A DNA stretch of 41,421 bases from Prochlorococcus sp. AG-432-D11 (GTDB taxonomy: Bacteria > Cyanobacteriota > Cyanobacteriia > PCC-6307 > Cyanobiaceae). The notes beneath the pieces are model-generated. The model worked only from the letters and a program-made list of their open reading frames with translations, was not told the origin of the DNA and did not search any database. Each line of letters opens with the position of its first letter. Positions within the stretch are counted from its first letter, which is position 1. The translations under genes and the position numbers were made by a program. Positions 22,321 through 40,194 of the stretch are shown here, one piece after another. The stretch lies in assembly GCA_003212885.1 (NCBI GenBank), contig QCOP01000007.1:1-41421 (forward strand), read 5' to 3'.

Positions 22321-24300
22321 ATGTCAACAAGTCTTTCACTCAAAGCTAATTCAGCCATGACTTCTCAATCACAACAACAACCCACTCTTAGAGTTATCCC
22401 TCTTGGGGGGCTTCATGAGATAGGAAAAAATACTTGTGTTTTTGAGTATGGAGATGAGCTGATGATGGTAGATGCTGGTCTTGCTTTTCCCAGCGATGGA
22501 ATGCATGGTGTGAATGTAGTTATGCCAGATACTAGTTTTTTAAGAGAAAACCAAAAAAGAATTCGTGGAATGATTGTTACTCATGGGCATGAAGATCATA
22601 TTGGTGGTATTGCTCATCATTTGAAGAATTTCAATATACCGATCATTTATGGCCCTCGACTCGCCATGTCAATGCTGCAAGGCAAAATGGATGAAGCTGG
22701 GGTATCTGATAGAACAACTATTCAGACAGTAGGACCAAGAGATACTGTCAAAGTTGGTCAGCACTTTTCAATTGAATTTATTAGAAACACACATTCAATA
22801 GCTGATAGTTTTTCATTAGCAATTCAAACTCCAGTAGGCACAATAATTTTTACTGGTGATTTTAAATTTGACCATACGCCTGTTGATGGTGAGCATTTTG
22901 ACTTGGCTAGGATGGCTCATTATGGAGAAAAAGGCGTTTTATGTCTTTTTAGCGATTCTACAAATGCAGAAGTGCCAGGTTTTTGTCCTTCAGAAAGAAC
23001 TATTTTTGACCCATTAGATAGGCATATTGCTAATGCAAATGGCAGAGTGATTGTCACAACTTTTGCCAGCTCAGTTCATAGGGTATCTATGATTTTGGAA
23101 ATGGCTCTTAAAAATGGAAGAAAGGTAGGTTTGTTAGGCAGATCGATGGTAAATGTTATTGCTAAAGCACGTGAAATAGGTTATATGAAATGTCCTGATG
23201 ATTTGTTCGTTCCTATTAAGCAAATTAGAGATTTACCTGATAGAGAAACCCTTTTATTAATGACAGGTAGTCAAGGTGAGCCTTTAGCTGCTTTGAGTAG
23301 AATTTCTCGTGGAGAGCATCAGCATGTTCAGCTTAAAACGACGGATACTGTGATTTTTTCAGCTAGTCCTATTCCAGGGAATACAATTTCTGTTGTTAAT
23401 ACAATTGATCGTTTAATGAAGCTAGGAGCGAAGGTTGTATACGGAAAGACAGAGGGGATACATGTGTCTGGCCATGGTTTTCAAGAAGATCAGAAGCTAA
23501 TGTTGGCATTAACAAAGCCAAAGTTTTTTGTTCCTGTTCATGGTGAGCACAGGATGCTTGTTTGTCACAGTAAAAGTGCTCAAACCATGGGAGTACCAGA
23601 AGAAAATATTTTAATTATTGAAAATGGTGATGTTGTTCAACTTACTCCAGATTCAATTTCTAAAGGCGATCCAGTCAAAGCAGGAATAGAACTCTTGGAT
23701 GCTTCTAGAAATGGTGTTGTTGATGCTCGTGTTTTGAAAGAACGCCAGCAATTAGCAGAAGATGGGATTATTACTGTGCTCGCAGCAGTGAGTACTGATG
23801 GAGTGATGGTTGCACCTCCGCGAGTCAATTTGCGAGGAGTTGTGACTACAGCTGAGCCTAAAATGATGTCTTTTTGGACAGAAAAAGAGATTGGTTGGGT
23901 ATTAGACAATAGATGGAAGCAATTATCAAGACAAATTGGGAATAATGCCGCTGAAGTTGATTGGATTGGTTTCCAAAGAGAAGTGGAATCTGGCTTAGCA
24001 AGACGAATGAGACGTGAGTTACAAGTTGAGCCCTTGATTCTTTGTTTGGTCCAACCTGCACCTAGCGGAACACCTGCATATAAAAGTAGATTTGAGGAAG
24101 AATTAAACAATAAAAGAAATATGACTAGAAAAAATGTACCGACAAATATTATTAATCAAAAAAATCCTAGATCAACTGCTAATTCAGGCTTATCTTCTTC
24201 TAAAGCTTCAGTCAATACCACAGCAGATGTCTCTCTAGACTCTAATAATGATGATATTCCTTCTGGTAGAACACGTAGACGGAGATCTGCTGTTGGTTAG
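22321..24300 (+). CDS. rnj: Ribonuclease J
   Basis: A metallo-beta-lactamase/beta-CASP ribonuclease with 5'-exo and endo activity in mRNA turnover and rRNA processing. The 659 residues show LRVIPLGGLHEIGKN, the zinc motif HGHEDH at 88-93, FTGDFKFDHTPVDG, SDSTNAEVPG, the beta-CASP region TTFASSVHRVSMI and the metal-binding histidine in VPVHGEHRML. The final 60 or so residues are a basic, S/N/R-rich tail ending GRTRRRRSAVG, longer than in Bacillus RNase J. An ATG at residue 13 is a possible alternative start. It is convergent with tilS (33-base gap containing a weak TAGAA/TTCTA repeat). Confidence 0.95.
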   Translation: MSTSLSLKANSAMTSQSQQQPTLRVIPLGGLHEIGKNTCVFEYGDELMMVDAGLAFPSDGMHGVNVVMPDTSFLRENQKRIRGMIVTHGHEDHIGGIAHHLKNFNIPIIYGPRLAMSMLQGKMDEAGVSDRTTIQTVGPRDTVKVGQHFSIEFIRNTHSIADSFSLAIQTPVGTIIFTGDFKFDHTPVDGEHFDLARMAHYGEKGVLCLFSDSTNAEVPGFCPSERTIFDPLDRHIANANGRVIVTTFASSVHRVSMILEMALKNGRKVGLLGRSMVNVIAKAREIGYMKCPDDLFVPIKQIRDLPDRETLLLMTGSQGEPLAALSRISRGEHQHVQLKTTDTVIFSASPIPGNTISVVNTIDRLMKLGAKVVYGKTEGIHVSGHGFQEDQKLMLALTKPKFFVPVHGEHRMLVCHSKSAQTMGVPEENILIIENGDVVQLTPDSISKGDPVKAGIELLDASRNGVVDARVLKERQQLAEDGIITVLAAVSTDGVMVAPPRVNLRGVVTTAEPKMMSFWTEKEIGWVLDNRWKQLSRQIGNNAAEVDWIGFQREVESGLARRMRRELQVEPLILCLVQPAPSGTPAYKSRFEEELNNKRNMTRKNVPTNIINQKNPRSTANSGLSSSKASVNTTADVSLDSNNDDIPSGRTRRRRSAVG

Positions 24301-24333
24301 TTAAACTGTTTTTCTAGAAACTTTAGGTTAGTT

Positions 24334-25350
24334 CTATAATTTATCAATTAATGAAATAAATTCTTTATTCCAACAAATATTCCATCCTCCAGGAAGGTTC
24401 ATAGTTCCGGCATGTATTTTAGTAACTATAGAGTAACTTAACTCTTCGATTGTGGTTGCTTTTACTGATGGAACACCTTCTTCTTTTAACCATTCAGCTA
24501 AGATAGTTTCTCTAGCTAATCGTGAGAGTTGGCAAAATTCTTTTCTAGATAAAAGATTATCTTTTCTAAGTGAATTCAGTACAATTTTGATGAATTCTTT
24601 TTCATAGTTATATAGTTCTGATAACTTTTGTGATAGTGATGAAATTCTTAAAGTACATCCAGGGTGCAAACTTTCTAAGATTGGCATAATTTCTTTTCTA
24701 ATTTTATTTCGAGTTAAGTCAGAGCTTTCATTGGAAGGATCTAGCCAAATTGGCAAGTCAAAATCATTGCAGATTTGTTTTGTTTCTTCCCGTGTAAAAA
24801 TTAATAATGGCCTGATAAGTTGAATGCTTTCCTTTAACTTCCTTATATATTTTAGACTGCCAAGCCCATTAAGATTGCTTCCTCTTGCAAGATTCATAAT
24901 TAATGTTTCTGTTTTGTCAGAAGCAGTGTGACCAGTTAATACATAATTACAATTTCCTAAAGACTTGTATGAAGAAATTGTTTTTGCAGTATGAATTAGT
25001 TTTTCATACCGCCATTTTCTTGCTGATTCTTCATTATAGACTTCCTTTTTAGAAGCAATATCAAAATGGAAATGAATATTTTGTTGCTTAGTCCAAGCTT
25101 TCAGCTCTAGTGCAAATTCATTGGATTTTTGATGCCATCCGTGGTCACCATGCCAAATATGAATTTTCCATTTGTATATTCTTTGTAGATCTGAAATAAG
25201 TTTTAGGAGCGCCATTGAATCCTGACCTCCAGAGACTGATAAAAGTAATGATGCGCCTATAGGAAGTGGATGATTGTTTTTTTTTAGTGATTTGTGAAAG
25301 CGATTATGCCATTCACTCCATGGAGATTGCATTTTGGTAGATTGTGGCAT
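24334..25350 (-). CDS. tilS: tRNA(Ile)-lysidine synthetase
   Basis: It modifies the CAU-anticodon C34 of tRNA-Ile2 to lysidine using ATP and lysine, which is essential for decoding AUA. The 338 residues have the PP-loop SGGQDS at 40-45 in LLLSVSGGQDSMALL, the IWHGDHGWHQKS segment, LTGHTASDKTETLIMNLARG, and LIRPLLIFTREETKQIC. A shortened C-terminal helical region ends in PGGWNICWNKE; the long C-terminal domain of E. coli TilS is lacking. It is divergent from ycf23, with 78 bases between the starts that include a GTTCT/AGAAC inverted repeat at 25380-25395. Confidence 0.93.
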   Translation of the reverse strand: MPQSTKMQSPWSEWHNRFHKSLKKNNHPLPIGASLLLSVSGGQDSMALLKLISDLQRIYKWKIHIWHGDHGWHQKSNEFALELKAWTKQQNIHFHFDIASKKEVYNEESARKWRYEKLIHTAKTISSYKSLGNCNYVLTGHTASDKTETLIMNLARGSNLNGLGSLKYIRKLKESIQLIRPLLIFTREETKQICNDFDLPIWLDPSNESSDLTRNKIRKEIMPILESLHPGCTLRISSLSQKLSELYNYEKEFIKIVLNSLRKDNLLSRKEFCQLSRLARETILAEWLKEEGVPSVKATTIEELSYSIVTKIHAGTMNLPGGWNICWNKEFISLIDKL

Positions 25351-25428
25351 CTTTTTTGGTCACCAAAATTCTTTTTTTAGTTCTTTTTCTAGAACAATGT
25401 CAAAATCAGGTTATCTAAAAAACTACAA

Positions 25429-26208
25429 ATGTCTCGCATCAGTAATTTGCCTTTTCCCTTAAGAGAGGCTTTTGCCAATCAGTCGCTTTTAAAGGTTATT
25501 TCTGGTTTGAATAATTTTGATGCAATCAGCGTCAGTCAAGTTGCTAAAGCAGCCCAAGCAGGTGGGGCAACTTTGCTTGATATGGCTTGTGATTCTGGAT
25601 TAGTTCAAATGGTAAAAAGGCAAGTACAAATTCCTATTTGTGTAAGCGCAGTAGAACCTTCTTTATTTGGCGAATGTATTGAGGCAGGAGCCTCAATGAT
25701 AGAAATAGGAAACTATGATTCTTTTTATTCCCAAGGAAGGGTCTTTGAAGCAGAAGAAGTCTTATCATTAACTCGAGAGACTAGGTCGTTATATCCAAAT
25801 GTTGTTTTATCAGTAACTGTCCCTCACTTCCTTCCTCTACATTGCCAGTCTGCTTTGGCATTGGAATTAGTTGATTGTGGCGCTGATGTAATTCAAACTG
25901 AGGGGGGCACTAGTGCTTCGCCTTTAAGTCCTGGTACTTTAGGCTTAATAGAAAAAGCGTCTCCAACTCTTGCTTCAGTTTTTGATATTTCTCAGACTTT
26001 TCAACAGCATGGACTTACTGTTCCACTGATTTGTTCTTCAGGTTTATCTTCAGTTACGATACCTCTGGCTTATGCCAGTGGAGCTTGTGGTGTAGGAGTT
26101 GGTTCTGCCATTAATCGTTTGACAAATCAAATAGAGATGATTGCAATGGTCCGAACACTTGAGGCCTCAGTAATGAATTCACGACATCTCTCTCAGGTGT
26201 CTAATTAA
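25429..26208 (+). CDS. ycf23: Ycf23 family (DUF561) TIM-barrel protein
   Basis: A 259-residue protein of the DUF561 family, whose plastid members are called Ycf23. It has the look of a phosphate-binding (beta/alpha)8 barrel: repeated strand-helix units (LLKVISGLNNFD, GGATLLDMACD, ICVSAVEP, ASMIEIGNYDSF, VVLSVTVPHFLP, ADVIQTEGGTSA, LICSSGLSS) and a C-terminal GACGVGVGSAINRL phosphate-cup motif like those of ThiG, HisF and related barrels. The biochemical function is not established. It is conserved in cyanobacteria and red-lineage plastids, which suggests a photosynthesis-linked role. The next gene, uvrB, is 20 bases downstream. Confidence 0.88.
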   Translation: MSRISNLPFPLREAFANQSLLKVISGLNNFDAISVSQVAKAAQAGGATLLDMACDSGLVQMVKRQVQIPICVSAVEPSLFGECIEAGASMIEIGNYDSFYSQGRVFEAEEVLSLTRETRSLYPNVVLSVTVPHFLPLHCQSALALELVDCGADVIQTEGGTSASPLSPGTLGLIEKASPTLASVFDISQTFQQHGLTVPLICSSGLSSVTIPLAYASGACGVGVGSAINRLTNQIEMIAMVRTLEASVMNSRHLSQVSN

Positions 26209-26228
26209 TATTGTTTTAGAATCGTTTC

Positions 26229-28277
26229 ATGTGTGAAAGCAATATGGCTAGTTATTTTTTAGATGCTCCTTATGAGCCACGAGGGGATCAACCCCAGGCA
26301 ATAACTAAATTGGTTGATGGTGTAGATGATGGAATGAAATATCAAACTCTTTTAGGTGCTACTGGAACTGGTAAAACTTTTACTATTGCAAATGTTATTG
26401 CCAAGACTGGACGGCCAGCGCTTGTCTTGGCTCATAACAAAACTCTCGCAGCACAATTATGCAATGAGTTAAGAGAATTTTTTCCTAAAAATGCCGTTGA
26501 GTATTTTATTTCTTATTATGATTATTATCAACCTGAAGCTTATGTCCCAGTTAGTGATACATATATAGCAAAAACATCATCTATCAATGAAGAGATTGAT
26601 ATGCTACGGCATTCAGCTACTCGTTCATTATTTGAGCGGAACGATGTTATAGTTGTAGCTTCAATTAGTTGTATTTATGGTTTAGGAATTCCCAGTGAAT
26701 ATTTAAAGGCATCTGTTAAATTTAAAGTAGGTTCTACTATTAATATTCGTTCTTCTCTTAGAGAATTAGTTAATAATCAATATACTCGTAATGATTTAGA
26801 AATTTCGAGAGGTAAATTCAGATTAAAGGGTGATGTCCTTGAAGTAGGACCAGCATATGATGATCGATTGGTAAGGATAGAATTGTTCGGAGATGAAGTT
26901 GAAAATATTAAATATGTAGATCCAATAACTGGAGAAATTTTAGAAAATCTAGATTTTATTAATATTTATCCTGCAAAACATTTTGTTACCCCAAAAGATA
27001 GATTGAAACAGGCAATTGATGCTATTAAAAGTGAATTGATTGATCAAATTGATTTTTTTAATGATCAAGGTAAGCTTTTAGAAGCACAGAGGTTAGAGCA
27101 ACGAACTAAATATGATTTAGAAATGCTAAGAGAGGTTGGTTATTGTAATGGAGTTGAGAACTATGCACGTCATTTATCTGGACGAATAGCTGGGTCTCCT
27201 CCAGAATGCTTGATAGATTATTTTCCAGATGATTGGTTATTAATTATTGATGAAAGTCATGTGACTTGTTCTCAATTACAGGCAATGTATAATGGAGATC
27301 AATCTAGAAAGAAAGTTTTAATCGAGCATGGTTTTCGATTGCCTAGTGCTGCTGACAATAGACCTTTAAAATCAGATGAATTTTGGAAAAAAGCGAATCA
27401 AACTATTTTTGTAAGTGCGACGCCAGGGACCTGGGAATTACAAATAAGTTCTGATCAGGTTATTGAGCAAGTGATTAGACCTACAGGAGTGTTAGATCCT
27501 TTGGTTGAAGTGAGACCTACAAAGGGTCAAATCGATGACCTCTTAGATGAAATTCAGGCACGAGTAATTAAAAACCAAAGAGTTTTAGTTACTACCTTGA
27601 CCAAGAGAATGGCAGAGGATTTGACTGATTACTTGTCTGAAAAATCTGTTAAAGTTCGTTATCTTCACTCTGAAATTCATTCGATTGAGAGAATAGAAAT
27701 TATTCAGGATTTGCGAGTTGGAGCTTATGATGTTCTTGTTGGAGTGAATCTCTTGCGAGAAGGTTTAGATTTACCAGAAGTTTCTCTAGTTGTAATTTTG
27801 GATGCTGATAAAGAAGGTTTTTTGAGAGCTCAGAGGTCTTTGGTGCAAACAATAGGTCGCGCTGCAAGGCATATTGAAGGCATGGCATTGTTATATGCAG
27901 ATAATTTAACTGAATCAATGGCTCAAGCAATTTATGAAACTGAACGACGACGGAAAATTCAAAAAAAGTATAATTTAGATCATGGATTAACCCCGAAGCC
28001 AGCAGGTAAAAAATCTAATAATTCTATTCTTTCATTCTTAGAATTATCAAGGAAATTACAGAAAGATTCAAGTAGCGATGATCTTCTTAGTATTACAGAA
28101 AATGTTGTTGATAATTTTAAATTAAATAATGACTTAGATACATGTCTTGAGAATTTACCCGAGCTTATTGATCAATTAGAATCAAAAATGAAGAAGGCTG
28201 CAACCGAATTGAATTTTGAGCAAGCTGCTAAATTAAGAGATCAGATTAGTAAACTGCGTAAGAAGTTGCTTAGATAA
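26229..28277 (+). CDS. uvrB: Excinuclease ABC subunit B
   Basis: The damage-verification helicase of nucleotide excision repair, acting with UvrA and UvrC. The 682 residues contain Walker A GATGTGKT at 43-50, the beta-hairpin region [29 protein letters not shown], the DESH box IIDESHVT, helicase motifs V/VI in [15 protein letters not shown] and QTIGRAARH, and the C-terminal UVR coiled coil at about 645-680 that contacts UvrC. The length is normal. It is convergent with lysC (26-base gap). No SOS/LexA-like box is evident upstream. Confidence 0.97.
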
Positions 28278-28303
28278 GGAAGAATTAATATTACAGATAA
28301 TTT

Positions 28304-30067
28304 TTATAATATTTGATGTAAACCAAAACAATTGTGGATTGCTTTGAGTGCGTCCAATCCATCATCTTTGGCTACAATGCATGTTGTTCTGATTTCACTG
28401 GTTGCGATCATTTCGATATTTATATTTTTTTCTGCAATTGCTCGAAATATTTTTGCTGCTGTTCCCAATGTATAAGGCATACCTGCACCTACAGCGCTAA
28501 TTCTTGTAATAGCAGCTCCATCATTAAGTTTTGCATTTTGCCATTTTTTCATTAAACCATTAAGAGCAATATCTGCGCCTTTTCGATCATTTTTATTAAG
28601 TGTAAAACCAATTGTTCTTCCTCCTTCAGGAAGAGTTCTCTCTGATTGGACAATTGTATCTACGCTAATACCTGCATCAGCAAGTGTTTTGCACAGAGTC
28701 GCTGCTGTTCCAGGCAAGTCGGGAACGCCAATAACACTTACTTGTGCTTGATTAGGATCTAAAGCAATTCCTCTGACTGCTGGTTCTCCAAAATTAATGT
28801 TTTTGGGATTTATTTCAATTTGTTTTTTATCTAATTCAAATGCTTCTGATACATATCTAAGTGCTTTTGCTCCTAAATTGGCATTAATCACACAACTAAC
28901 TTTTACCTCACTAGTTGCAATTAGCCTTATGTTTATTCCAGCTTGTGAAAGGTTGTCAAAAAGTTTTGCTGCGATGCCTGGTCTTCCCATAATTCCTGCA
29001 CCACTAATACTTAATTTAGTCATGTCTTCTTGAATACATACTTTGCCTCCAATGGATTCAAGAATTTTTTCACATAGAACCTTGGCCTTAAGCAATTGCT
29101 TGCTAGCTACGGTGAAAGTAATGTCATTAGTATTTCCTTCATGTGTTGACTGAATTATGAGATCAACATTAATTCCTCCATTGGAAAGTTTTTCAAATAA
29201 ATCTGCTGCGATGCCAGGCTGATCAGGAATGTGCGACAGTCCCAACACTCCCTGATTCTCAACTAGTTCTAATCCTGTTACTGGTCGTCCTAGCTCTAAG
29301 CCCTCTTTTCTTATAGATTTTTTATTATGGCTAGTAAGAGTGGTTCCTGGTCCTTTTTCACGGCTTGATTTCACTATTAGTGTTACACCATAATTTCTTG
29401 CGATTTCGACAGCTCTGGGGTGTAAAACTGCCGCTCCTAAGCTTGCTAACTCGAGCATTTCATCACAACTAATTTTTTGTATTAATTGAGCTTCCTTGAC
29501 TTTACGAGGGTCTGTAGTCAGCACGCCTGGAACATCAGTATATATTTCACATTGAGCTGCTCCTAAAGCAGCAGCAACGGCCACTGCGGATGTATCAGAT
29601 CCTCCTCTTCCTAATGTTGTGATTTCTGCAGTTCCATCACTACTAAGGCTGGTGCCTTGAAATCCAGCAATGACTACTACATTTCCTTCATCCAAAAGAG
29701 TATTTATTTTTTCGGTTCTGATATCCAGTATTCGAGCTTTACCAAAGGAAGATTCTGTAATGATTCCTACTTGCGGACCTGTTAGCGATTTGGCAGGGAT
29801 CCCAATTTCATTAAGTGCCATTGCCAATAAGGAGATTGAGACCTGTTCTCCGGTTGAAAGCAACATGTCCATTTCCCTATTAGGAGGGTTATGAGTTATT
29901 TGATTCGCTAGTTGAGTTAGTTGATCTGTGGAATTCCCCATTGCAGAAACAATTATGACTAGATCGTGTCCATCAAGTTTGCTTGAAGCTATTTTTCGAG
30001 CAACCGATTTAATGTGATCAACACTTCCTACTGAGGTTCCACCAAATTTTTGCACCAAAAGTGCCAT
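28304..30067 (-). CDS. lysC: Aspartate kinase with four ACT domains
   Basis: It phosphorylates aspartate, the entry step to lysine, threonine and methionine, and is feedback-controlled through ACT domains. The 587 residues begin with the kinase signature MALLVQKFGGTSVGS, followed by GFQGTS, TLGRGGSDTSAVAVAAAL and a kinase domain to about 245. Four ACT units follow at about 265-345, 346-425, 440-515 and 520-587. They form two similar pairs: IPDQPGIAADLFEKLSNGGI and GRPGIAAKLFDNLSQAGINI match VPDLPGTAATLCKTLADAGI and YTLGTAAKIFRAIAEKNINI. This is the four-ACT architecture known for cyanobacterial aspartate kinase. It lies 34 bases downstream of holA on the same strand. Confidence 0.95.
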   Translation of the reverse strand: MALLVQKFGGTSVGSVDHIKSVARKIASSKLDGHDLVIIVSAMGNSTDQLTQLANQITHNPPNREMDMLLSTGEQVSISLLAMALNEIGIPAKSLTGPQVGIITESSFGKARILDIRTEKINTLLDEGNVVVIAGFQGTSLSSDGTAEITTLGRGGSDTSAVAVAAALGAAQCEIYTDVPGVLTTDPRKVKEAQLIQKISCDEMLELASLGAAVLHPRAVEIARNYGVTLIVKSSREKGPGTTLTSHNKKSIRKEGLELGRPVTGLELVENQGVLGLSHIPDQPGIAADLFEKLSNGGINVDLIIQSTHEGNTNDITFTVASKQLLKAKVLCEKILESIGGKVCIQEDMTKLSISGAGIMGRPGIAAKLFDNLSQAGINIRLIATSEVKVSCVINANLGAKALRYVSEAFELDKKQIEINPKNINFGEPAVRGIALDPNQAQVSVIGVPDLPGTAATLCKTLADAGISVDTIVQSERTLPEGGRTIGFTLNKNDRKGADIALNGLMKKWQNAKLNDGAAITRISAVGAGMPYTLGTAAKIFRAIAEKNINIEMIATSEIRTTCIVAKDDGLDALKAIHNCFGLHQIL

Positions 30068-30101
30068 TAAGTTCCCTAGAGTATATTTAAATATTTAATC
30101 A

Positions 30102-31097
30102 TCATTTTGACAAAAGGCTTTCTGTAAATGCATCCAATGGGGGTACTCCTTTCTTGATTAAACATTCAGCTTCTAAAACTTTGCTGAGTAATTTGATAAA
30201 TAGTGATGGTGATTTGTTTTGTATTTGTTTTCTAATGATATATATTCTTTTCGGATTTGAAATACCGGCTTTTTTAGCAATAAAATTAATATCGTGTTTT
30301 TTTTCTTTATCTAAAAGGCTGACCCAAAGCCAGCCTCTTACTTGACCTGTAAGAGTTGCAAGTATTCTTAGTGCAGGTTCTCCATTGGCCATTAATTGAT
30401 CTAGTCTAAATAATGCTTCACCATAATCTTCTTGCAATAAAAAATTTGCTATTTCAAGAGAATTAGTAGAAATACCTTCAATTAGTTCATTGACGCTTTT
30501 TTTGCTTATTAAAGTTATATCATTTGACTTTTGTTTTGTTTCTTCAAATAATGCCAATTTTTTTAATTCTTCTTCGATTCTTATGCTATCAGTTCCTAAA
30601 GTATCCATTAGAGATAAAATAGATTCTTCTTCAAAACATATCTTCAGTTCATTTGCTGTTTTTTCTATAAGTGCTCTTTTTCCAGCTGTATCCCATATTG
30701 CAGGTAATTGATAGTTATGTTGAGAGGCTCTTTCTAATTGGATCTCTTGCTGAATTAATTTTGTTGTTTTTAATCTTCCATCAGGTTTATTTAAATTGTC
30801 ACAGACTAAATGTGTGCTTTCTGGAATTTGTCTGACTATTCCTTCAAATCGACTTGCTAATTCGTTTGAACAATTATTAAAAAGAGTACTTTGTTTTAAG
30901 ATTATTATTCTTGCATTGCTTCCAAATGGTGGAGTCAATGAAGCTTGAAGTGCATTAAAGCATTCAAGTTGATCTTTTCCATTGAATCTGCTTAGATTCA
31001 TTGAAATCCAAGTTTGTTCAATGCTGTCTTTGATTAGCTTTTCTATGTAGCGCTCTTTAGCCCTAGTATCGTCACCCCAAAGTAAATGAATTGGCAT
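30102..31097 (-). CDS. holA: DNA polymerase III subunit delta
   Basis: The clamp-opening subunit of the clamp loader, partner of the dnaX product encoded 14 kb away. The 331 residues have the N-terminal IHLLWGDDTRAKERYIEKLI, the LIIL-type clamp-contact segment around SNARIIILKQSTLF, and the helical C-terminal domain with GEALFRLDQLMANGEPALRILATL, which is typical of delta. There is no Walker A, as expected for this family. The start is the ATG at 31097. It is divergent from cobH (65 bases) and followed by lysC. Confidence 0.9.
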   Translation of the reverse strand: MPIHLLWGDDTRAKERYIEKLIKDSIEQTWISMNLSRFNGKDQLECFNALQASLTPPFGSNARIIILKQSTLFNNCSNELASRFEGIVRQIPESTHLVCDNLNKPDGRLKTTKLIQQEIQLERASQHNYQLPAIWDTAGKRALIEKTANELKICFEEESILSLMDTLGTDSIRIEEELKKLALFEETKQKSNDITLISKKSVNELIEGISTNSLEIANFLLQEDYGEALFRLDQLMANGEPALRILATLTGQVRGWLWVSLLDKEKKHDINFIAKKAGISNPKRIYIIRKQIQNKSPSLFIKLLSKVLEAECLIKKGVPPLDAFTESLLSK

Positions 31098-34982: not shown

Positions 34983-35459
34983 ATGGCTTCATATGAAGGG
35001 CGTTTTACCGATGCTTCTGATTTAAAAATCGGAATTGTTGTTGCGCGTTTTAATGATTTGATAACCAACAAGCTTTTGAGTGGTTGTCTTGATTGTCTTT
35101 CTCGCCACGGTATGGATGTTTCTGAGAATAGCTCTCAACTAGATATAGCTTGGGTCCCAGGCTCTCTTGAACTTCCAATAGTTTGCCAATCCTTTGCAAA
35201 GAGTGGTAATTATGACGCCTTAATTACATTAGGGGCTGTTATTAGAGGTGATACGCCTCATTTTGATGTAGTCATTAATGAATCCAGTAAGGGAATTTCC
35301 ACCATTGCTAGAGAATCTGGTGTTCCAATCATTTTTGGAGTATTGACTACTGACACAATGCAGCAAGCATTGGAAAGAGCTGGTATAAAAAGCAATCTTG
35401 GTTGGAATTATGCTTTGCAGGCTCTTGAGATGGGCTCTTTAATGAAATTATTCAGTTAA
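34983..35459 (+). CDS. ribH: 6,7-dimethyl-8-ribityllumazine synthase
   Basis: It condenses 5-amino-6-ribitylaminouracil with dihydroxybutanone phosphate, the penultimate step of riboflavin synthesis. The 158 residues show [33 protein letters not shown], the phosphate/substrate loop [15 protein letters not shown] with the catalytic histidine, and [16 protein letters not shown], all diagnostic. The start is the ATG at 34983. It is 86 bases upstream of the tRNA-Gly gene. Confidence 0.97.
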
Positions 35460-35525
35460 TTTTTAAGCATCATTGAAAATTTCAATTGACCATATCCCCC
35501 CTGTTGAGGCATGCTGTTTTGATAA

Positions 35526-35542
35526 CAGAGAATATTTCTCTG
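35526..35542 (+). other. Perfect hairpin immediately upstream of tRNA-Gly
   Basis: CAGAGAA (35526-35532) and TTCTCTG (35536-35542) are exact reverse complements with a three-base loop. The hairpin ends three bases before the first base of tRNA-Gly. It may act in 5'-leader processing or as the end of the ribH transcript; no U-run follows it, so classic intrinsic termination is unlikely. Confidence 0.4.
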
Positions 35543-35545
35543 ATT

Positions 35546-35617
35546 GCGGATGTAGCTCAGTGGTAGAGCATCTCCTTGCCAAGGAGAGGGTCGAGAGTTC
35601 GAATCTCTTCATCCGCT
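35546..35617 (+). tRNA. tRNA-Gly (anticodon GCC)
   Basis: A complete cloverleaf can be folded by hand. The acceptor stem GCGGATG pairs with CATCCGC (35546-35552 with 35610-35616), with discriminator T at 35617. The D-arm is GCTC/GAGC. The anticodon stem is TCTCC/GGAGA around TTGCCAA, with anticodon GCC at 35578-35580. The variable region is GGGTC, and the T-arm is GAGAG/CTCTT around TTCGAAT. The GTTCGAAT block is canonical. The 3' CCA is not encoded. It sits at the left boundary of the sparse, AT-rich region that runs to secA. Confidence 0.97.
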
Positions 35618-35631
35618 TTGTTGAACACTAT

Positions 35632-35658
35632 TAAAGGACTAGTCTTCCCAGTCCCTTA
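35632..35658 (+). other. Imperfect hairpin downstream of tRNA-Gly
   Basis: TAAAGGACT (35632-35640) faces AGTCCCTTA (35650-35658): eight pairs and one A-C mismatch around a nine-base loop. It lies 14 bases past the tRNA end, so it could delimit the tRNA precursor. No T-run follows, which argues against a standard intrinsic terminator. Confidence 0.4.
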
Positions 35659-35710
35659 CAGGAGTAGATAATACTAACGATGAACTTGATTATTTAAACT
35701 TTTTCTTTTT

Positions 35711-35729
35711 GACGAGAGTTCGTAGTCTC
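35711..35729 (+). repeat. Degenerate partial copy of the tRNA-Gly T-arm
   Basis: GACGAGAGTTCGTAGTCTC at 35711-35729 matches GTCGAGAGTTCGAATCTC of tRNA-Gly (35590-35607), with a ten-base exact core (CGAGAGTTCG), two substitutions and one inserted base. The acceptor-stem part of the tRNA is not recognisable after it. It may be a decayed attachment-site remnant or tRNA fragment; chance is not excluded. Confidence 0.4.
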
Positions 35730-35872
35730 AAAGCTTTCTATGAGTTATTTGTAGTTAATTTCGATGCAAATTGGAATAAATTTTAGTGGTCTGATAAGTA
35801 GGTTAAAAAAATTAATGATGCAGTTTTTATTCTGAATTTTCAGTCTGATCAGCATTTTTATGTCGATCTGGA

Positions 35873-35985
35873 ATTGAACACTGATTTGTTATCGCACTGG
35901 GGGAAAACAGTCTAATAGGAAGGGTAACTACTGTCTCTATAGCCGCTAAAGACGCGTATCTCTTTACCGCTTTTGCTCTTTTGCT
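35873..35985 (+). ncRNA. Candidate small RNA (structure-based guess)
   Basis: A GC-richer block inside AT-rich non-coding DNA. It contains ACTG/CAGT (35896-35899 with 35908-35911) closing a GGGGAAAA loop, and an alternative ACAGT/ACTGT pairing (35907-35911 with 35930-35934). A hairpin CG-C-TAAAGA/TCTTTA-C-CG follows (35944-35952 with 35961-35969, one C-C mismatch), and then CTTTTGCTCTTTTGC, a T-rich tail compatible with a plus-strand terminator. The purine loop is loosely reminiscent of the GGAAACA loops of the Yfr2/Cyano-1 RNAs of marine cyanobacteria, but it is not an exact match. The 5' end is unknown. Confidence 0.3.
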
Positions 35986-36008
35986 TAATTAAGGCTCTTG
36001 CTATGCTA

Positions 36009-36287
36009 TTAACTTGCCAAATAACTGGTGATAACGGTTGAATCCCATATATGTCCACTGGCTTCAGCTATAGGTCTTGCACCTTCAAACATTTTTAATG
36101 CGGCGCCTTCTTCTCCCTGATGAATTACTAATACTGATGTCGGGTCATCCTTACTAACTCCTCTATATAAAGGTGTAATTCCTTTTGCTTTGTGCATTGC
36201 TTCGGCTTCTGGACTGTCAAAACCTTTAGCCCATTCAGCAAACGGAACAGAAATCTTGAAAGTGAATACTGTTGTTTCTAGTGCCAT
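36009..36287 (-). CDS. DUF3764-like small protein
   Basis: A 92-residue soluble protein that I associate with DUF3764, a family common in marine picocyanobacteria; the assignment is by remembered pattern only. Visible features are an N-terminal strand with TTVFTFKISVPFAEWAKGFDS, a middle GITPLYRGVSKDDPTSVLVIHQGE, and EGARPIAEASGHIWDSTVIT at the end. This suggests a ferredoxin-like or dimeric alpha-beta barrel fold of the antibiotic biosynthesis monooxygenase kind. There is no signal peptide and there are no cysteines. The function is unknown. It is flanked on both sides by non-coding stretches over 350 bases long, so it stands alone in the AT-rich region. Confidence 0.75.
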   Translation of the reverse strand: MALETTVFTFKISVPFAEWAKGFDSPEAEAMHKAKGITPLYRGVSKDDPTSVLVIHQGEEGAALKMFEGARPIAEASGHIWDSTVITSYLAS

Positions 36288-36638
36288 GAAAAAATAGAAT
36301 TGCTAGTGCCCAGACTATTACATGTTTCATATAATGTTCTATCTAACAATCTATTTTTTTAGATTCTTATGACACAAAAGAAAAATGCGTTGTTTTTAAT
36401 CTTGTGAGCATAATTAAATTTTCATAAAGGACGACTTCATTATTGCTGAGTTAGATTTGTTTCGCCAGGATGAGATGTTAATAAGTAATATCTAAAAAAG
36501 TAATTAGGTAAAGTCTTCTTGTTTGATAAAACAATCCTAATTTTGAACTATCTCTAACTTGATAAGCATATATTGTTTCTTGCCTACTTAGGTCAAAGAT
36601 TCCTCTGATTTAAAATTGTTTATTTCTTTCTTATCATT
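36288..36638. other. 351-base AT-rich non-coding stretch
   Basis: No open frame longer than about a dozen residues from an ATG, no tRNA and no strong hairpin were found here. It contains scattered A/T tracts and would have to hold the promoter of the DUF3764-like gene and the 3' end of the HAD-protein transcript. I see nothing else in it. Confidence 0.5.
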
Positions 36639-38771
36639 TTATTTATATCTAAGAATTACAAGAAAATCTTCATATATAAAAGAACATTTAATTTTTATTT
36701 TTTTGAATATATCGTTTGCGTTTAATGTTTTATTTCCAAAATTTGATTTTTTAGTATAACTTTGAAGACTATTACTTTGAGTCTTAGTATTCAGCTTTAC
36801 ATACAATTTTGAGTAAATTAGTAGCATCAAGTATATGGGAATATGAATTATATAGCCTAGTAATGGTGTATTTAATAAAGATAATTCCCTCCATGCTCGA
36901 CTCCCTGCAATTCTCTTATTTAATGCAATAGTTTGAAGATTTTTAGGACTTATGTTTTTTAAACTTGGTGATAATGGCTTTGCTATTGTTTTGTGTGAGA
37001 TGGCAAAGGATTCATTAACACATTTGATATTTTTAAAAATTTGTATCCACGATTTTTTTGGTTTACAAAAACAATGCTTTTGTAAAATCATTAATATACT
37101 TTGTAATTCATCATTGCTTCCTTGAAGAGAAGTTAAAGAGCTTGATGCAAATTTTTGAAGAGATTGGTTGAATTCTATGCGGAGATTTTTTTCACCGTCG
37201 TTTTCATAAATATTACAAAAAAGCAACTTCTTACTATAAGATTTTAATGAGTTTGAGCCATCACAACTTAAAAGAAGTTCAAATAATTGTAAGCGTCTAA
37301 AAAATTTAAAAATATCATTGTTTTCTATTTCTGTAGTTTGGTTTGTACTTTCTTGAAATACTGATTCATATCCGTATTTTGCGGCTTCGAAATTTCTGAG
37401 TTTCTTGACACCTAATAAATAAAATTTTGGTAATTTCTTAATGCCATATGAATTAAGTATGGAAGCAAGCATGTAGTGACACCTTAATGCCCAACCAAAA
37501 TCTACTATTGCTTTTTTTCTTTCTGAAAAAAGCCCAATTGATTGAAAATAATTGTAAGAAGCATTAGTTTCATTTTTTAAACTTTTACTTAAACGATCAA
37601 AGACCTTTTTATTTTCAAGACTTTTTAAAAAATTACACCAAATTTGATTATTATTTAAAATTAATTTTATGTCTTTAGGAATATTTTTATTTTGTTCTGC
37701 AGCCTCTCTATAGTCTTTAAGTGATATATCAAGGAATTCAAGAACTTGAATGATACTTTTGTTGTTAAAATACTCTTTTAATATGTCTAAATTAAACTTT
37801 TCATCTAGGTAAATACTAGATAGCATTAAAGCTTTTCTAGATACTGCAAAATAAATAATTTTAATTTGTAACTTCTTTTTGGTTATAAGATTTTTAAGGA
37901 TTATTTCTAATCCTAAGCAATCTCTTGAGCATAAATATAACTCTTTAATATCGGATCTTAAGCACTGGTTGATTATCCATTCTGCCAGTATCCATAAGAA
38001 AGGTCCAATGAAATAGCAAGTAAGATCATCATATATATTTCTTATTTGATGATTATTGCTTATTCTAAATGATCGTATAGAAGCAACTAATTTGGATGCT
38101 ATTAGACTAGATGTAGGAGAAATTAGATTTGCTAATTCATGTTCTCTTTCTGTTAATGCAGAGGGTTTAATATATTTAGTTTTGATTTGTAGGCGCTTTG
38201 CTTGAACAATATCTGAATGATAATTATTTCCGTGATGCTTCAGTTGGTGAGCTTGTATTTTTTCATTTTTTAGTACAGTTTTATATAAGGAGCCATCATC
38301 TTTTGATTTCTTATATTCACTTGATACGTATAGACTGTCTTTTGAATGGAAGAATCCATATTTAATTAATTGTTTTTTTAAGAATATAGTTGGTAAATAC
38401 ATATCAGAAATGAATATAACTTTGCCATATCTTTCTCTTGCTTTATTAACAAGTTTTAGTGTTTCGTAGCAAGGTAATAATGAATTCTCTTCTATCGATA
38501 ACTCAATATTTATTCCATTTTTTATAGATAAATCTGGGATTATTTTTTTTATTTCAATATAAATATCTTCTAGCTTTGGCTCTCCTTCCTTTATTTTATT
38601 TCTTACTAGATTCTCAGCTTGTTTTCTTATATTTGCAAATGATTCCTTGTATCTATCTCCAAATTGTTTTTTGAGATCTTCCTCAAGCTTTAGAGCAATC
38701 TCTAGAAATAAGTCATCAGGCTCTATATACAGCCTTGTTAAGCATGTATCATATACATCAAAAGACCACAT
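36639..38771 (-). CDS. Large HAD-superfamily protein of the surface-polysaccharide type (COG5610-like)
   Basis: A 710-residue protein. The N-terminal 200 residues are a HAD domain: motif I FDVYDTCLTR with D5 and D8, motif II VIFISDMYLP at about 115-125, and motif IV at about 178-192, HHGNNYHSDIVQAK, where the usual GDN is GNN. The middle part (about 250-470) has the second-domain pattern of COG5610 proteins, such as ELYLCSRDCLGLEIIL and KAIVDFGWALRCHYML. A hydrophobic segment at about 640-662 (LLGYIIHIPIYLMLLIYSKLY) may anchor the C-terminus. Such proteins occur in capsule and O-antigen loci; the substrate is unknown. Three sampled 60-base lines contain 8, 14 and 18 G+C, against 25 in a line of clpX, which suggests transfer. 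It is divergent from the SpsF-like gene. Confidence 0.75.
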   Translation of the reverse strand: MWSFDVYDTCLTRLYIEPDDLFLEIALKLEEDLKKQFGDRYKESFANIRKQAENLVRNKIKEGEPKLEDIYIEIKKIIPDLSIKNGINIELSIEENSLLPCYETLKLVNKARERYGKVIFISDMYLPTIFLKKQLIKYGFFHSKDSLYVSSEYKKSKDDGSLYKTVLKNEKIQAHQLKHHGNNYHSDIVQAKRLQIKTKYIKPSALTEREHELANLISPTSSLIASKLVASIRSFRISNNHQIRNIYDDLTCYFIGPFLWILAEWIINQCLRSDIKELYLCSRDCLGLEIILKNLITKKKLQIKIIYFAVSRKALMLSSIYLDEKFNLDILKEYFNNKSIIQVLEFLDISLKDYREAAEQNKNIPKDIKLILNNNQIWCNFLKSLENKKVFDRLSKSLKNETNASYNYFQSIGLFSERKKAIVDFGWALRCHYMLASILNSYGIKKLPKFYLLGVKKLRNFEAAKYGYESVFQESTNQTTEIENNDIFKFFRRLQLFELLLSCDGSNSLKSYSKKLLFCNIYENDGEKNLRIEFNQSLQKFASSSLTSLQGSNDELQSILMILQKHCFCKPKKSWIQIFKNIKCVNESFAISHKTIAKPLSPSLKNISPKNLQTIALNKRIAGSRAWRELSLLNTPLLGYIIHIPIYLMLLIYSKLYVKLNTKTQSNSLQSYTKKSNFGNKTLNANDIFKKIKIKCSFIYEDFLVILRYK

Positions 38772-38919
38772 ATACGAAATCTTATCAAAATAAGTTCATA
38801 TTATCAAACTCTAAAGTCATAGTGTAGTCAGTATTTTATTTTGTAAATTTAAGCTACCCAAAAAAATCTTGATTATTTAATATATATTTATTTCATTGGT
38901 CGTAATTTAATTTCTTGAA

Positions 38920-39657
38920 ATGAAAATAATTATAGGAATTCAAAGTCGGATTAGTTCTTCACGATTGCCTGCAAAGGCATTGTTGAGATTGGCAGATACT
39001 ACGGTTTTAGGAATGATAATTCAAAGAGCATTGACTACTACGTTTCCCGTTTATTTGCTTACTAGCGAGCATGAATATGATCATCTTCTAGAAAATGAAG
39101 CCTATAAGAATGGTGTTAATGGAGTTATTAAGGGGCCTTTAAATAATGTATTGGCTAGATTTATAAATTTAGCTGAGGAATATAAGCCTGATATAGTTAT
39201 TCGGGTAACAGCTGATAACCCTTTAACAGAGTTTAGATATATTAAACCTCTAGTAGATTACATGTTAGAAAATGGTATTGAATATAGTTGGATTAATCCA
39301 AGATTATGTCCAGATGGAACTAATTTAGAAGTTTTTGCGCCAAATCTTATTTTTAGATCTTCATCTGTTGATCATAGCCAATATAATAAAGAAAACGTCA
39401 CACCTTGGATGAAGAGTGTTTCTGGAAGCAAAAAGGATGCTTGTAATTCTTCGATTCAAAGTATTTTACCTATCAATGGACAGCATTATCATTTTGGAAT
39501 TGATACTTTAGATGATTACTGTAAGGTTTCAACTTTGATTGATCATTTAATTCAGAAAGGTTTTGATTGGAGACATCAAGATTTTGTTAAGGAATCTGTT
39601 TTAGAGGTTACAGGTTTAAATTCAAACTTCCCTTCAGGAAGAAGGCATGCTATATAG
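38920..39657 (+). CDS. SpsF-like cytidylyltransferase
   Basis: A 245-residue nucleotidyltransferase of the SpsF/NeuA-type family (COG1861), whose members are thought to activate acidic or amino sugars as CMP-sugars for surface glycans. The N-terminal CTP-binding motif is IQSRISSSRLPAKALLRLAD, with R10, S14, R15, P17 and K19 in the R-x-x-S-x-R-L-P-x-K pattern. VLGMIIQRAL, VIRVTADNPLTE (the metal-binding aspartate) and the late FGIDTLDDYCKV segment follow. It is complete in length. Its start is 148 bases from the HAD-gene start, so the two share a divergent promoter region. No sugar-synthesis or glycosyltransferase gene sits beside it, so the sugar is unknown. The name SpsF is by family, not function. 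Confidence 0.85.
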   Translation: MKIIIGIQSRISSSRLPAKALLRLADTTVLGMIIQRALTTTFPVYLLTSEHEYDHLLENEAYKNGVNGVIKGPLNNVLARFINLAEEYKPDIVIRVTADNPLTEFRYIKPLVDYMLENGIEYSWINPRLCPDGTNLEVFAPNLIFRSSSVDHSQYNKENVTPWMKSVSGSKKDACNSSIQSILPINGQHYHFGIDTLDDYCKVSTLIDHLIQKGFDWRHQDFVKESVLEVTGLNSNFPSGRRHAI

Positions 39658-39741
39658 ATCCAATGTTATTTGTTAATGTCTAATTTCTTGTAGTATTTCA
39701 AGAGTTCAATATGATTTAGTTTGATAGATTCTTTCAGATTG

Positions 39742-40194
39742 TTATTTTTTTTTTAATAAGCTTTGACTAATACATTTTTCAAAACCTAATTGCTCATAAA
39801 AATTTGAGCTTTTTGTTGTCATCAGATATATCCGTTCGACGTTCTTGATTTGGGAGGATGATAGAAGGGCCTTAACAACCTTACTTCCGAGTCCTTGGCC
39901 TTGAGAGTCTTCTGAAACTACTATGTCCCATAGAACTGCGCGAAAGATTCCATCGCTTGTTGCTCTACCAAAGCCAATAATTTTGTTGTGTTTCCATAAG
40001 CTGATTACGATTGTGCTTCCTGCTAAAGCTTGTCTTAATTCTTTGTAACTTCTTTTTTGGGCCCAAAAAGTGTGTTTATCTAAAAGATCTCTTAATTGGG
40101 ATAACCCTTTACGTGGCAGCAAATTAGGCCCTAGGCCAAATAAGCGTAGACCTGGTGCTCCTGATGCGTGACGAATAAGAATAATATCTGCCAT
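39742..40194 (-). CDS. GNAT-family N-acetyltransferase
   Basis: A 150-residue acyltransferase using acetyl-CoA; the substrate is unknown. GNAT features are the strand-turn LWKHNKIIGFGRATSDG, VLWDIVVSEDSQGQGLGSKVVKALL with the Q-x-x-G-x-G CoA-phosphate loop (SQGQGLG), and the C-terminal YLMTTKSSNFYEQLGFEKC, which carries the typical F-Y-x-x-x-G-F end. The frame is open to a TTG at 40209, but the ATG at 40194 (MADIILIRHAS) is preferred. It is divergent from secA with about 140 bases between starts. Its base composition is closer to the core genes than to the HAD gene, so it may mark the end of the accessory stretch. Confidence 0.88.
   Translation of the reverse strand: MADIILIRHASGAPGLRLFGLGPNLLPRKGLSQLRDLLDKHTFWAQKRSYKELRQALAGSTIVISLWKHNKIIGFGRATSDGIFRAVLWDIVVSEDSQGQGLGSKVVKALLSSSQIKNVERIYLMTTKSSNFYEQLGFEKCISQSLLKKK

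Follow-up and report, generated by a model that had tools for sequence, protein, structure and literature searches.

The 41,421-nt stretch of DNA analysed here (hereafter referred to as the window) is an entire contig (C7) of a 57-contig, 981-kb assembly, with an estimated completeness of 53.8% and a contamination estimate of 0.06. Gene content, together with the sequence-only reading, marks the source as a probable marine picocyanobacterium. Judging from sequence comparison, positions 35618–39741 form a genuine small accessory island of the glycan type. The explanation that we consider probable is that of a genome-specific, horizontally acquired glycan cassette, containing a two-domain ribofuranosyltransferase and lodged in a core-genome slot prone to gene gain and loss. 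The features of the region are listed in Table 1.

Table 1. Features of the region from ribH to the contig end, with positions in the window, strand and supporting evidence.
Feature	Position	Strand	Evidence
ribH (lumazine synthase), conserved left flank	34983..35459	+	Pfam DMRL_synthase 1.6e-49; same position in relatives
tRNA-Gly(gcc), conserved left flank	35546..35617	+	ARAGORN, Rfam (tRNA, 74 bits); secA-linked in 34/45 genomes
Private insertion, 4.1 kb, tRNA-Gly to GNAT	35618..39741	.	Its three genes absent from 60 slot stretches
DUF3764 protein, 92 aa	36009..36287	-	PF12594 4.7e-38
710-aa PRP-gPRT, putative PRPP-dependent ribofuranosyltransferase	36639..38771	-	phmmer, model, Foldseek/VIA, invariant residues
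PRP domain (residues 1-210), a phosphoribose phosphatase of HAD type	38142..38771	-	VIA rows over residues 1-210; D5, S122, K157, D187
gPRT part, residues ~211-560, domain end approximate	37092..38141	-	R283, D284, S311, D424; model vs 8a0m_A over residues 1-639
Divergent intergenic stretch between two glycan genes, 148 bp	38772..38919	.	ORF coordinates
Cytidylyltransferase (CTP_transf_3), likely CMP-ulosonate synthetase	38920..39657	+	PF02348 1e-18; best relatives in NeuB-containing clusters
GNAT acetyltransferase, backbone right flank, not island	39742..40194	-	Acetyltransf_1 2e-13; relatives have copies close to secA, 55-68% identical
secA, 5' portion truncated at the contig end	40335..41420	+	Homologues 83-90% identical in relatives

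The slot between tRNA-Gly and secA was compared in secA-upstream DNA from 40 family genomes, with extension of 15 of these stretches and the addition of five genomes, giving 60 stretches from 45 genomes, which were hand-picked for high-identity secA sequences and a spread over genera and are not a random sample. The usual order, mutS(-) psbZ ribH tRNA-Gly(gcc) GNAT(-) secA, was widely conserved. A link between tRNA-Gly(gcc) and secA was established for 34 of the 45 genomes (one contig was too short), and ribH was not seen within about 29 kb in 10 of the 45, in which the slot may be broken. No tblastn match (E up to 0.01) to the DUF3764 protein, the 710-aa protein or the cytidylyltransferase was obtained in any of the 60 stretches; 35618–39741 is, therefore, private to this genome within the sample, and the GNAT gene belongs to the backbone. 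The sequence-only reading of this region had proposed a small accessory island with surface-glycan content and had named, as the finding that would speak against it, the same genes in the same order at this locus in most close relatives. The proposal held, with no such arrangement in the 60 stretches from 45 genomes, but its right border, placed at 40194, is better set near 39741, because the GNAT gene is conserved backbone.

The top two secA matches (90% and 88%) both came from genus g17, in which the distance from tRNA-Gly to GNAT is 212, 86 and 36 bp (L040, L041 and L045, respectively), versus 4.1 kb in the window. Over the 34 linked genomes, the span from tRNA-Gly to secA ranged from 78 to 27,456 bp and was at most 1.4 kb in 21; within genus g5, the slot measured 78 bp (L133), 7.1 kb (L132), 15.6 kb (L131) and 16.6 kb (L130). 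The backbone of L132 and L133 is rearranged (psbZ-ribH, mutS, GNAT, then tRNA-Gly and secA), with GNAT on the opposite side of the tRNA. Five slots have no GNAT position in the distance table (L047 and L130–L133), the GNAT hit of L130 reaching merely 31%. Extra DNA of more than 1 kb was present on the GNAT-secA side in nine slots and on the tRNA-GNAT side in four, a tally that includes slots counted on both sides (L077, L127 and L129 are named). The long slots were rich in glycan genes. Among their 107 ORFs of at least 120 aa (17 stretches), glycan-type families led the Pfam matches, as tallied for the best 25 of 86 families: GDP_Man_Dehyd and Epimerase with 14 each (overlapping sets), Glycos_transf_1 with 10, ABC_tran with nine and NTP_transferase with five. 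TPR, SMC_N, HlyD and sulfotransferase families were likewise represented, and the nine GNAT matches include the backbone gene. The ribH/tRNA-Gly–secA slot is a variable core-genome site, probably one of frequent glycan-gene turnover.

The GC content per 500 bp fell to 0.24–0.28 across 36250–38999, from 0.37–0.40 on the left (35250–35999) and 0.38–0.40 on the right (39750 onward), and the AT-rich part begins about 630 bp past tRNA-Gly. At 0.270, the GC content of the 710-aa gene is below that of all 241 background ORFs of at least 200 aa, and values as low were found for three of the 340 background ORFs of at least 100 aa. The drop in base composition described for this gene by the sequence-only reading was thereby confirmed. 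Its GC3 (0.193) lies within the genome range, being just the 41st lowest of the 340, so the AT-richness of the gene is partly a matter of amino-acid make-up. Strongly atypical composition is confined to this gene: the DUF3764 (0.405) and GNAT (0.380) genes are ordinary and the cytidylyltransferase gene (0.325; rank 60 of 340) is mildly AT-rich. The segment 36250–39749 was matched in AT-richness by five of 1340 overlapping 3.5-kb windows from 400 kb of the same genome. All five come from one spot (contig C12:1–4500; L145 1–4500), where ORFs are small and few, one of them, of 139 aa, being membrane-like. The two non-coding gaps longer than 350 bases that had been noted are real (35618–36008, 391 bp; 36288–36638, 351 bp) but unremarkable, with 37 of 392 background gaps being at least 350 bp long. 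The promoter scan found 21 candidates versus 23.6 in shuffles, and the terminator scan four versus 2.2 (sd 1.6).

The 710-aa protein gave only a sub-cut-off match in Pfam and weak HAD matches in NCBIfam. With phmmer, it matched Bcs3 (3.8e-12) and the ribofuranosyl transferase of Thermobacillus composti (7shg; 1.1e-7), at about 18–19% identity. A single-sequence AlphaFold model was discarded (pLDDT 34.8). An AlphaFold2 model built with 60 homologues had a pLDDT of 83.4 and a pTM of 0.85, the last 150 residues being mostly of low confidence. The top eight Foldseek rows obtained with this model were all Bcs3 or 7shg (E between 3.6e-20 and 1.8e-16, against 1.1e-4 for the row that follows). VIA aligned 593 residues with 8a0m_A (Z 26.5, rmsd 6.2) and 521 with 7shg_B (Z 22.8, rmsd 10.6), and its rows place a HAD fold at the N-terminus of the model; VIA adds no fold beyond those of Foldseek, and absence from VIA is uninformative. 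The structural model thus indicates that the protein is a PRP-gPRT (phosphoribose phosphatase plus glycan phosphoribosyltransferase), like Bcs3 CrpP-CriT. The earlier label of "HAD gene" was right as to the domain but incomplete as to the protein.

Across 61 sequences, there is no variation at D5, S122, K157, D187, R283, D284, S311 and D424 and almost none at R312, and the R-D and S-R residues of the PRPP site are thus kept. For alignment A5, 60 of the 78 usable loci (of 80) were retained, 18 being dropped by eye; in the more diverse nine-row alignment A2, the position of D284 is occupied by D or E. Residue N182, at a position usually occupied by D, is N in six of 21 rows, window included. The loop after VDFGW does not follow the common G-[ST/R]-x-Q pattern, and R430 takes the place of the S884-equivalent, a position occupied by S or T in Bcs3-like rows. 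This diverged loop and a long branch in the tree (see below) could be taken as marks of a decaying or repurposed, inactive remnant, as could the possibly orphan setting of the gene (PF03102, NeuB, has no match in its own genome, of which only about 54% is covered). We nevertheless regard such a remnant as distinctly improbable: the 710-aa frame is intact, the family-invariant residues are kept, the model is confident and N182 is shared with other homologues. In the available text of PMC10299916, PMC11127046 and PMC12887879, enzymes of this kind use PRPP to put ribose-5-phosphate on a glycan, from which the HAD domain removes the phosphate to yield beta-ribofuranose. The 710-aa protein should take ribose-5-phosphate from PRPP, attach it to a glycan and then strip the phosphate.

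Strong profile matches (E below 1e-70) to the 710-aa gene were obtained in three of 400 family genomes, its own, G030 and G044, with G030 itself part of the profile. Profile matches overall numbered 35 of 400, 32 of them covering merely a short part of the protein, mostly the HAD domain, and a single-sequence search found two of 201 family genomes (its own and G030). In a sample of the cyanobacterial phylum, 37 of 386 genomes matched, including its own and G030. A search with alignment A4 retrieved 385 relatives in genome_contigs (80 kept) and 15 in viral_contigs, with 23–30% identity; scans with the lone protein had yielded 84 and 8 candidate stretches, respectively, none of which was confirmed. 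The gPRT protein was matched in two of 50,697 phage records, over residues 1–284 and 3–209, and no phage DNA resembling 35618–39741 was found. In a quick tree of 64 rows, the window sequence grouped with L206–L208 (SH-aLRT 96), two Pseudomonadota and one PVC-labelled sequence, apart from the cyanobacterial rows, a placement that is only a lead, given the long branch and biased composition of the window sequence. The homologues of L206 and L207 lie within ABC-exporter and glycosyltransferase clusters and that of L208 beside a glycosyltransferase; those on seven plasmid stretches mostly have exporters, glycosyltransferases, sugar enzymes or kdsA/kdsB as neighbours. Matches in 35 cyanobacterial-phylum genomes outside the family, at 32% identity for the best, are in keeping with vertical descent of an ancient cyanobacterial gene and its loss from almost every picocyanobacterium. 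We consider this history very improbable, in view of the rarity of strong matches in the family, a GC content out of line with the genome and the position of the gene in the quick tree. The same three observations (three strong matches in 400 genomes, outlying GC and tree position) point instead to horizontal acquisition of the cassette, which we hold to be probable as part of the explanation put forward at the outset.

The divergently oriented neighbour (CYTIDYLYLTRANSFERASE), a CTP_transf_3-family cytidylyltransferase, belongs to the CMP-sugar cytidylyltransferase family of nonulosonate pathways (pseudaminic/legionaminic type) and, from its sequence relationships, is likely a CMP-ulosonate synthetase. 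It has matches in 50 of 400 family genomes, its own included. The best two other matches (43–44%) lie in clusters with NeuB and a DegT aminotransferase, and the cluster in L109 also contains Polysacc_synt_2. No tblastn match to it (E up to 1e-3) was found beside gPRT homologues in 29 loci, 21 of them with flanks of about 1.5 kb, and there was likewise none in 80 gPRT-homologue loci. A gPRT homologue on a Pseudomonas plasmid has kdsA and kdsB annotated two to three genes downstream, an analogy that supports, in kind only, the pairing of gPRT with a cytidylyltransferase.

The DUF3764 family was found in 57 of 101 family genomes and in none of 14 control genomes. It is a family with copy turnover; up to six matches were present in one genome (G055), some copies having internal stops. 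A 65-bp stretch upstream of DUF3764 (36316–36378) is 78% alike to one at C8:17084–17146 (L004 1501–1563), which lies upstream of an unrelated 131-aa ORF. It is absent from the DUF3764 loci of nine relatives, and its sequence makes a shared regulatory element possible. The distribution of DUF3764 also bears on whether the insertion could be an assembly or amplification chimera. The assembly is indeed fragmented and 54% complete, but the insertion is flanked on both sides by core genes whose order and strand are conserved, one of its genes is widespread in the family while lacking in the controls, and the contamination estimate is 0.06; we rate a chimera as the least probable of the alternatives considered.

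The sequence-only reading had also tied the island to insertion at tRNA genes and to tycheposons. Its starting points were sound: the stretch begins at tRNA-Gly(gcc), and no recombinase is present, none of the four ORFs between tRNA-Gly and secA containing a tyrosine recombinase domain. The tie itself was not borne out. Within the region, the tRNA-Gly 3' end is matched over 10 of 12 bases at best, and no copy was found in about 475 kb of the genome's own DNA, the PF00589 matches of which sit on contigs C9 and C10. Relative to tycheposons, as described in the available text of PMC10872708, the insertion has the one tRNA border and barely reaches the size range of 4–200 kb, but it lacks the tyrosine recombinase and the repeated tRNA 3' end.

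Contig C10 contains, at 24216–30817 (L304 9216–15817), tRNA-Arg(tct) followed by a tyrosine recombinase-like 441-aa ORF (Phage_integrase match below cut-off, 20.3 versus 27.1 bits), a DnaJ-like ORF and an 823-aa D5-type helicase (DUF3854/D5_N). The last 35 nt of this tRNA are copied with one mismatch on contig C13 (L146 1862–1896), where ARAGORN finds no tRNA. Together these features make a candidate element integrated at tRNA-Arg(tct), resembling a tycheposon or a phage satellite whose parts lie on separate contigs. Detection of the partial tRNA copy and the recombinase-like gene indicates that the scan was able to find such marks.

These genes suggest that such elements occur in the lineage and, with the insertion directly downstream of the tRNA-Gly 3' end, the island might be the remnant of a tRNA-Gly-integrated element, a tycheposon or other, from which the recombinase and one att site have disappeared. 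We judge this improbable, although less so than the alternatives above: the region and the genome DNA searched contain no tRNA-Gly 3' copy, the window has no recombinase, the longer inserts of relatives lie mostly beyond GNAT (nine slots versus four), and no integrase occurs among the best 25 of 86 Pfam and 25 of 36 PHROG families of the 107 slot ORFs.

Under the glycan-cassette explanation, the gPRT domain would transfer ribose-5-phosphate from PRPP to an acceptor sugar and the HAD (PRP) domain would then take off the 5-phosphate, so that a surface polysaccharide ends up with beta-ribofuranose. A CMP-ulosonic acid, perhaps for the same polymer, is the probable product of the divergent neighbour. 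The cassette may be swapped by homologous recombination on its core flanks, and the benefit may lie in altered recognition by phages or grazers. A bolder version, with a ribofuranose surface polymer (perhaps ribose-ulosonate, comparable to Kdo-ribose capsules) made by a PRPP-dependent enzyme from outside the cyanobacteria and a lineage-wide, integrase-free cassette-exchange slot, seems to us rather unlikely.

New here are the identity of the island's principal gene and the account given of the slot, and both belong to known kinds. The 710-aa protein resembles Bcs3 CrpP-CriT of Haemophilus influenzae (8A0C/8A0M) and 7SHG in having a HAD phosphatase followed by a gPRT, in its whole-length fold and in its invariant residues, but it has no CroT-type domain, its loop after VDFGW has diverged and it has a separate C-terminal part of about 150 residues modelled with low confidence. 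The Kdo-ribose capsule polymerase KrkA of Escherichia coli K13, as presented in the available text of PMC12887879, shares the PRP-gPRT and, probably, a CMP-ulosonate supply; unlike KrkA, the window protein has no fused Kdo transferase domain, and the cytidylyltransferase is a separate neighbour. The glycan islands of Prochlorococcus and Synechococcus (PMC7522525, available text) are similarly variable regions of gained genes between core genes, but the insertion here is small, at 4.1 kb, and the ribH/tRNA-Gly–secA slot is not named in that text. Titles and abstracts retrieved for Prochlorococcus together with ribofuranose contained nothing about glycans.

These results provide a predicted function for a gene without any Pfam family above the cut-off, and they predict that a surface glycan of a picocyanobacterium contains ribofuranose, a prediction open to chemical testing. 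The compact, core-bounded slot lets the turnover of sugar-coat genes be tracked across picocyanobacteria, with possible links to recognition by phages and grazers.
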